Origin: Lysobacter arseniciresistens ZS79
Lineage (GTDB): Bacteria > Pseudomonadota > Gammaproteobacteria > Xanthomonadales > Xanthomonadaceae
DNA length: 64,000 nt
Assembly: GCF_000768335.1 (NCBI RefSeq)
Contig: NZ_AVPT01000003.1
Location: 1-64,000, forward strand
Direction of reading: 5' to 3'
Shown here one piece after another: positions 6,893-7,415 of the stretch (positions are counted from its first letter, which is position 1; the number at the start of each line of letters is the position of its first letter). Both the position numbers and the translations under genes were made by a program. A model generated the notes under the pieces. That model saw only the letters and a program-made list of their open reading frames with translations. It had not been told where the DNA came from and did not search any database.

Positions 6893-7075
6893 TCGGCAGG
6901 TCTTCGGGCTCTGGACGCGGACAGTCTGCTGTCCTCCTACCGGCCGTCGCTTCCCGGGGCGTACCCAGTGCCAAGACGGCTTTCGTTTCCACTACCGCTG
7001 CGGGGCAGCGCCGGCATTGGACTGAGGTGTCCGCACCGGCTTCCCTTTTCAGCCGACCGCGAGGCCGGCACCGAC
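6893..7075 (-). promoter_or_regulatory. Cobalamin (AdoCbl) riboswitch upstream of nrdAB
   Basis: Read on the minus strand, the leader shows the conserved cobalamin aptamer landmarks in order. A P1 5' strand GTCGG is followed by GGTGCCGGC, the GCTGAAAAGGGAAGCCGGTG core and TGCCCCGCAGCGGTA. GGAAACGAAAGCC, a GGCACTGGG segment and the 3' B12 box GAGCCCGAAGACCTGCC come next, and CCGAC closes P1. Cobalamin binding normally lowers downstream expression. Placed before the B12-independent class Ia reductase, it would shut nrdAB down when vitamin B12 is present, which makes sense if a B12-dependent class II reductase (nrdJ) exists elsewhere (inference). Confidence 0.93.
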
Positions 7076-7078
7076 GTG

Positions 7079-7094
7079 ACACAACATATCGCGC
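7079..7094 (-). promoter_or_regulatory. NrdR-box-like site 2 over the nrd -10 region
   Basis: A 16-bp element matches about 12 of 16 positions of the NrdR consensus (ACAC-w-ATAT-x-T-w-GTGT). It overlaps the -10 element and is centred 31 bp from the better site 1, about three helical turns away. This paired geometry is usual for NrdR, the zinc-ribbon/ATP-cone repressor of RNR genes. Confidence 0.6.
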
Positions 7095-7110
7095 TTGTTG
7101 GATATGTCAA
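7083..7110 (-). promoter_or_regulatory. Sigma-70-type promoter of nrdA-nrdB-thioesterase
   Basis: On the minus strand TTGACA (complement of 7105-7110) and TATGTT (complement of 7083-7088) are separated by 16 bp. The predicted start near 7076 coincides with the 5' edge of the riboswitch, which supports the promoter call. NrdR-like boxes cover both flanks. Confidence 0.75.
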
Positions 7111-7125
7111 CGCTAGATATTGTGG
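7110..7125 (-). promoter_or_regulatory. NrdR-box-like site 1 upstream of the nrd -35
   Basis: The minus-strand sequence CCACAATATCTAGCGT agrees with the NrdR box consensus at nearly every position. It abuts the -35 element of the nrd promoter. The AT-rich core is conspicuous in this GC-rich genome. Confidence 0.75.
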
Positions 7126-7167: not shown

Positions 7168-7415
7168 GCGCCTGCCGGGTAGCCTGGACAGTCGCTCCCC
7201 GATACTCGCTTGGTGTCCAAGCCACCCGGCAGGCGCTCGCCGAGCTGCGCCGGAGCCTGGGGGAGAGCAACGGCAAAAGCGAGAGCGCCACGGGCGGACG
7301 ATCTTCTTCGCTTTTGATCTCCTCCCGGTTCGCCGGACCGTGGGGAGCGGGGGCGCGGTGCCGTCGCAACCAAGCGAGTATCGGGGAGCGACTTGCGGCG
7401 GCACCGCGCCCCCGC
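7168..7415. repeat. Two hairpins with mutually complementary loops, upstream of pgk
   Basis: Hairpin A (7168-7236) has a stem of about 22 bp with two mismatches around a 23-24-nt loop. Hairpin B (7347-7415) has a 23-bp stem with one G-T pair and a 23-nt loop. A 25-bp segment spanning loop A (7190-7214) is an exact inverted repeat of the segment spanning loop B (7369-7393). A smaller inverted pair (AAAAGCGA/TCGCTTTT, 7275-7282 and 7308-7315) lies between them. The stem sequences of A and B are unrelated. No gene is visible here. It may be a non-autonomous repeat element or a structured pgk leader. Confidence 0.8.

Follow-up and report, generated by a model that had tools for sequence, protein, structure and literature searches.

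Which signals decide whether Lysobacter arseniciresistens ZS79 makes its class Ia ribonucleotide reductase (RNR)? The question is raised by the promoter of the nrdAB operon, at which two sequences resembling binding sites of the regulator NrdR stand directly next to a cobalamin riboswitch. Here, we analysed a window of 64,000 nucleotides (contig NZ_AVPT01000003.1, positions 1 to 64,000) together with the whole genome and relatives. By analogy with studied systems, we consider it highly probable that nrdAB, the class Ia RNR operon, is subject to two stacked repressive inputs, one exerted by NrdR and one by a riboswitch for adenosylcobalamin (AdoCbl). The elements, genes, conservation and counts of riboswitches and nrdJ genes given below were computed in this study, while ligands, binding and regulatory logic are transferred from studied relatives.

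The nrdAB promoter, its box pair and the leader

The locus comprises the following features:

7125-7110, minus strand: NrdR box 1, CCACAATATCTAGCGT, adjoining the -35 element (read from sequence, consensus score)
7110-7105, minus strand: -35 element TTGACA (promoter scan)
7094-7079, minus strand: NrdR box 2, GCGCGATATGTTGTGT, overlapping the -10 element (read from sequence, consensus score)
7088-7083, minus strand: -10 element TATGTT, inside box 2 (promoter scan)
7077 (A) or 7076 (C), minus strand: transcription start predicted from the -10 position
7090-6877, minus strand: cobalamin riboswitch aptamer (RF00174, 93.7 bits), P1 core from 7075
6853-6838, minus strand: hairpin GTCTTC-GGGG-GAAGAC after the aptamer, probable P13/L13
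6837-6596, minus strand: remainder of the nrdA leader, structured, no terminator-like site
6595-4097, minus strand: nrdA, encoding the 832-aa large subunit of class Ia RNR (TIGR02506, 710.8 bits, cut-off 341.05)
3937-2930, minus strand: nrdB, RNR small subunit, 335 aa (NF005550, 265.3 bits, below the cut-off of 309), directly following nrdA in the same orientation

The box pair agrees with the palindromic NrdR consensus at 25 of 32 positions; when 1200 bp of upstream sequence were dinucleotide-shuffled 2000 times, the maximum was 20, reached twice. The sequence-only reading of this DNA, which had placed two NrdR-like boxes with centres 31 bp apart around a TTGACA/TATGTT promoter, was thus confirmed; the centres lie about three helix turns apart, and the spacer between the boxes in the window measures 15 bp. 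A stricter pattern requiring ATAT matched the two nrdAB boxes only, compared to 3 matches of a control pattern, but was drawn up after the boxes were known and carries no evidential weight. Both boxes have a C at position 4 and a G at position 13, the conserved C and G being 9 bp apart, and these are the counterparts of two G-C pairs that the cited passages describe as important in S. coelicolor (PMC9110341). According to the same passages, the critical pairs at S. coelicolor nrdRJ occupy positions 9/18 and 40/49, an offset of 31 bp equal to that at nrdAB here (PMC9110341). In the cited part of another study, NrdRs of four species bound boxes with spacers of 14-17 or 24-27 bp and other spacers far less; the spacer of the window falls within the 14-17 bp class bound by all four (PMC12051234).

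TTGACA/TATGTT (10 of 12 consensus matches, spacer of 16 nt) was the sole promoter-like site detected by the promoter scan between 6500 and 7500, while shuffles gave a mean of 0.0 sites (sd 0.2). The earlier claim that transcription starts at the first base of the riboswitch holds to within a few bases, the P1 core beginning at 7075, the start itself being a prediction. The RF00174 match is complete (1-189 of 189), and its 93.7 bits compare with a gathering threshold of 31.5. The model leaves its first 8 positions unpaired, and with GUCGGU, the P1 core, beginning at 7075, a transcript starting at 7077 or 7076 would contain the complete core P1.

P1 and the hairpin were compared across 80 riboswitch loci, with the near-duplicates L045, L046 and L068 left out. 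Judged by eye, P1 varies on both strands in the relatives while pairing is kept (GTCGGT/GCCGAC, GTTGGT/GCCAAC, GCTGGT/GCCAGC). The hairpin with the GGGG loop probably corresponds to P13/L13 and would form a kissing interaction with a CCCC loop of P5, in keeping with its resemblance to the L13 partner of L5. Its stem likewise changes in pairs (GTCTTC/GAAGAC, GTCTCC/GGAGAC, GCCTTC/GAAGGC, ATCTCC/GGAGAT) and comprises 6 bp in 28 of the 80 loci, in which it begins 23-26 nt beyond the aptamer, 3 bp in 25/80, and is absent from 9/80. As shuffles yielded GGGG hairpins of at least 6 bp in 198 of 4000 cases, it is the fixed position and the paired changes that carry the case for this hairpin. Judged from these features, the nrdAB riboswitch looks intact. 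The nrdA leader (482 nt) is more stably folded than its shuffles (z -2.76). At about +53, the window and some close relatives repeat the 5' strand of P1 downstream, which made an anti-P1 switch a candidate; over the 78 of 80 riboswitch loci scored, such a copy did not exceed shuffles, and the switch was rejected.

NrdR, NrdJ and the other riboswitches of the genome

With 3.09 Mb and a listed completeness of 100, the genome contains one nrdR over cut-off, a full-length TIGR00244 match (Zn-ribbon and ATP-cone) with 196.7 bits versus 124.65, and hence the regulator that the sequence-only reading had invoked is present. The protein has both CxxC motifs as well as R12, D15, R17, R26-29 and R37, the counterparts of which in S. 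coelicolor NrdR contact DNA or zinc, as stated in the part of the structural account cited here (PMC9110341). Upstream of nrdR itself, no NrdR box pair was evident (score 15). By eye, the gene lies after what we take to be a glyA-like gene and before a presumed ribD-like gene.

The suggestion that the organism keeps a B12-dependent class II reductase also proved correct: one nrdJ was found over cut-off (581.4 bits versus 399.95), the only other match being nrdA, under the cut-off. A looser pair scan revealed an NrdR-type box pair upstream of nrdJ as well (score 21), and the idea of NrdR acting on nrdAB alone was therefore dropped. Such a pair precedes nrdJ in 30 of 30 fetched relatives, with scores of 19-26 and a distance of 31-33 bp. 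These scores come without shuffles of their own, and since at least 19 was reached in 86 of 2100 shuffles of nrdA upstream regions, isolated low values (19-20) prove little. The first nrdJ box is near-palindromic and found at a similar place in most loci. An alignment of 12 of the 31 rows places the pair downstream of a TTGAC promoter-like sequence. In this alignment, little is conserved from the boxes to the region of the start, which speaks against a conserved RNA in the nrdJ leader. Downstream of nrdJ and on the same strand, with one frame in between, lies the gene for a 270-aa protein that has a CxxC tail at its C-terminus (L011:2487-3299, minus strand); this protein may be a second NrdJ subunit, split off as in Pseudomonas.

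Three cobalamin riboswitches were detected in the genome, at nrdAB (93.7 bits), at btuB on C12 (104.2 bits) and on C68 (74.1 bits). Both riboswitches outside nrdAB stand in front of B12 receptor genes, each over the TIGR01779 cut-off, and none of the three RF00174 matches is located at nrdJ. One receptor gene with its riboswitch is followed by cobO, cobB and cbiB (L009:3277-9140); the second receptor gene with a riboswitch lies at L010:3555-5567.

Conservation in relatives and co-occurrence with nrdJ

Within a set of 80 genomes (our own and 79 relatives), 79 gave some NrdA-like match, and 41 encode an NrdA of at least 69% identity, referred to as window-type. RF00174 was matched by hand directly upstream of, and on the same strand as, 40 of these 41 nrdA genes, own included, the sole exception being G026. 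NrdR exceeds its cut-off in 40/41 window-type genomes, with a partial match in G015, and nrdJ in 38/41; nrdJ is missing in G026 (completeness 100), G015 (72%) and G032 (83%). G026 thus has neither riboswitch nor nrdJ and nevertheless retains the boxes.

The boxes turned out to be conserved in relatives. The pair is visible at all 30 fetched loci, own included, and scores at least 20 in 97 of 104 upstream regions, or in 97 of 105 if L097 is included, for which riboswitch and nrdJ are untested, compared to 21 of 2100 shuffles. In both sets the region of L029 was excised wrongly; its pair scores 21 at the fetched locus. Across the 104 regions the register of 31-33 bp is maintained, TTGAC adjoins box 1 in 96 (82/87 Lysobacterales-type loci), and a GTCGGT-like P1 stands just beyond box 2 in 85 (71/75 riboswitch-bearing Lysobacterales-type loci). 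All 12 Lysobacterales-type loci that lack the riboswitch still have the boxes. Five loci with less than 300 bp of upstream sequence (L083, L100, L101, L109, L112) were dropped from the 105-, 104- and 74-locus sets and from the tree.

Does the riboswitch go with nrdJ? The named loci represent the best 80 of 573 confirmed relatives, of which 74 had enough upstream sequence, L097 also being left out. Among these 74 of the best 80, RF00174 is present in 54 and nrdJ over cut-off in 60; 51 have both, 11 neither, 3 the riboswitch only and 9 nrdJ only. The riboswitch-only loci are L069, which has an nrdJ fragment just under the cut-off, and L095 and L099, two MAGs without detected nrdJ that may be incomplete. 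After setting aside 17 loci named for or grouping with other phyla, 57 Lysobacterales-type loci remained. With the riboswitch, 43 of 46 have nrdJ; without it, 10 of 11 have no nrdJ over cut-off, L057 being the exception. Of the 17 loci set aside, 8 combine nrdJ with absence of the riboswitch (L094, L103, L105, L108, L110, L117, L120, L121), a combination seen in Myxococcus-type genomes, and a universal coupling is therefore contradicted.

A quickly built NrdA tree with 105 rows requires at least 5 changes in the presence of the riboswitch and 7 in that of nrdJ, with L097 labelled by default only and L069 labelled as nrdJ-positive despite its fragment below the cut-off. Absence from Lysobacterales falls at three places: a Stenotrophomonas clade of nine, the pair L058/L063, and L028. 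At each of them the boxes are kept and nrdJ is missing too, except that one Stenotrophomonas (L057) has nrdJ; S. koreensis and Stenotrophomonas sp. ATCM1_4 fall outside the clade of nine and keep both riboswitch and nrdJ. We infer that these absences are losses rather than gains on what is an unrooted tree. At E values up to 10, neither an aptamer remnant in 7 of the 11 riboswitch-less loci and L028 nor a divergent aptamer in 9 non-Lysobacterales loci without RF00174 was found. Independent pairs never run the opposite way, but the events are few and the sign test is not significant (median p 0.5). By counts, riboswitch presence tends to follow nrdJ within Lysobacterales, on the basis of few independent events.

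Several nrdJ matches are split by about 370 aa at 281/282 within one frame of about 1100-1220 aa (G083, G094, G115, G121, G129, G135, G137 and others), and the insert is putatively intein-like. G094, the genome of L057 with nrdJ and no riboswitch, carries such a split match. Two loci possess a second cobalamin riboswitch on the minus strand pointing away from nrdA, forming a divergent pair (L080:1936-2232, L099:2144-2385).

Probable two-input control, its alternatives and known systems

Given these elements, control of nrdAB could proceed in two steps. When dATP is high, a tetramer of NrdR loaded with dATP/ATP would bind both boxes, covering about -49 to -2, and keep RNA polymerase out, thereby blocking initiation. 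Transcripts that have started would carry the complete AdoCbl riboswitch from nearly their first base, and coenzyme B12 would close the aptamer and shut the leader down before or at nrdA translation. With two repressive inputs, expression of nrdAB should hence require low levels of both dATP and B12. In presence of B12, the cell would rely on the class II enzyme NrdJ, which has NrdR-type boxes of its own. Because nrdJ also has such a pair, NrdR is probably a common brake on nrdAB and nrdJ, and B12, via the riboswitch alone, would decide between the enzymes.

Could one of the two inputs be illusory? The boxes overlap the -35 and -10 elements, and part of their conservation is thus promoter conservation, as expected if the riboswitch alone controlled nrdAB and the NrdR-like boxes were just AT-rich promoter sequence without a regulator. 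Yet box 1 is conserved although it lies almost entirely upstream of the -35 element, the 31-33 bp register holds, the boxes outlast the riboswitch in all 12 riboswitch-less Lysobacterales-type loci, nrdJ has a similar pair that stands downstream of its own promoter-like sequence, and nrdR is present in the genome, which together make sole control by the riboswitch very improbable. We attach still less credence to the reverse, a riboswitch decayed to a remnant with NrdR acting alone: the nrdAB aptamer scores below that of btuB on C12, though above that on C68, but it far exceeds the gathering threshold, its P1 and P13/L13 hairpin show paired changes, and it persists at 40 of 41 window-type nrdA genes.

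Two inputs stacked on one operon, the reading that we prefer, still allow different ways of wiring them. With regard to the riboswitch output, the chances appear evenly balanced that the leader acts only post-transcriptionally, concealing the start site of nrdA, rather than through Rho-dependent termination; the terminator scan found no intrinsic terminator-like site in the nrdA leader and a GGAG Shine-Dalgarno-like sequence follows about 270 nt beyond the aptamer, but no sequestering helix conserved across loci was demonstrated. The inputs might also be physically coupled if NrdR shifted the start site and thus gave transcripts whose P1 is disrupted and which no longer respond to B12. With P1 starting near +2 and box 2 ending near -2, the two are tightly juxtaposed, as in 71 of 75 riboswitch-bearing Lysobacterales-type loci; this arrangement follows equally from a start at the aptamer edge, however, and no second promoter-like site was found between 6500 and 7500, so that we regard such coupling as quite unlikely. 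A slim chance is given to a broader evolutionary scenario, in which box pair, promoter and aptamer would be an old fused cassette of the NrdA lineage with separately losable parts, the aptamer being selectively deleted after loss of nrdJ while the NrdR half is kept, and in which selection may keep box 2 and P1 almost without a gap, start-site choice determining whether a transcript can sense B12. The unit of NrdR boxes, promoter and aptamer also occurs in some myxobacterial and acidobacterial genomes.

A comparable arrangement is known from actinobacteria. The cited passages on S. coelicolor describe an AdoCbl riboswitch at nrdAB (PMC4991794, citing Borovok 2006) and experimental binding of NrdR to boxes at nrdAB(S) (PMC9110341); as in our strain, the class Ia operon has both NrdR boxes and a B12 riboswitch, and NrdR boxes are also present at nrdJ, in S. 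coelicolor an operon for which these passages mention no riboswitch (PMC9110341, PMC4991794). The systems differ in that nrdR is co-transcribed with nrdJ in S. coelicolor and stands apart here, between the glyA-like and ribD-like genes, and in that two-input control has been shown there by experiment and is predicted here from sequence. For Propionibacterium acnes, the section cited likewise places an nrd-box at the promoter of nrdAB and annotates a cobalamin riboswitch in the 5' UTR, with none annotated at nrdRJ; unlike our strain, it has a single nrdAB box, an nrdRJ operon and a riboswitch annotated also at nrdDG (PMC3848588). Pseudomonas aeruginosa (class Ia/II/III) resembles our strain in combining nrdAB with nrdJab in one genome, but the B12 response of its nrd genes is reported, in the portion cited, as independent of a B12 riboswitch, unlike what we propose (PMC5962746). 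In an account of 186 predicted proteobacterial NrdR regulons from 20 taxonomic groups, NrdR is described as never autoregulated, in agreement with the absent pair at nrdR here, and the cited part of this account makes no mention of riboswitches, nrdA or nrdJ (PMC5343134). The arrangement is thus already known in S. coelicolor and P. acnes, and the literature searched, which excluded most subscription papers and RegPrecise, yielded no description of NrdR paired with a B12 riboswitch in Lysobacterales; what is new is therefore the bacterial group, not the principle. Two-input RNR control would hereby be extended from actinobacteria to a gammaproteobacterial order. Natural one-input variants exist in most Stenotrophomonas examined, in Lysobacteraceae bacterium NML08-0793 and in G026, and as one input is missing in these, the share of B12 sensing in the decision for a class Ia or a class II enzyme becomes testable by comparison.

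Between the nrdA promoter and a phosphoglycerate kinase gene, we additionally observed two inverted hairpins (7168-7236 and 7347-7415) that share an identical loop of about 22 nt (around AAGCGAGTATCGGGGAGCGA) on differing stems of about 23 bp. A constant loop on varying, fully paired stems is not known to be typical of ordinary REP elements, and nothing clearly matching these conserved-loop hairpins was found in the literature searched. The loop occurs in four copies in the genome. Matches to 18 of its bases with up to 2 mismatches were found in 20 of 60 genomes, own included, with 20 copies in G008, including seven pairs in inverted orientation at a distance of 120-190 bp. Single matches with 2 mismatches may be chance, since six genomes each gave one match to a reversed control pattern. 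In 24 distinct hairpin copies from 19 loci, obtained with four spellings of the loop, 21-24 of 24 stem positions are paired, and many stems differ, some having a common motif.
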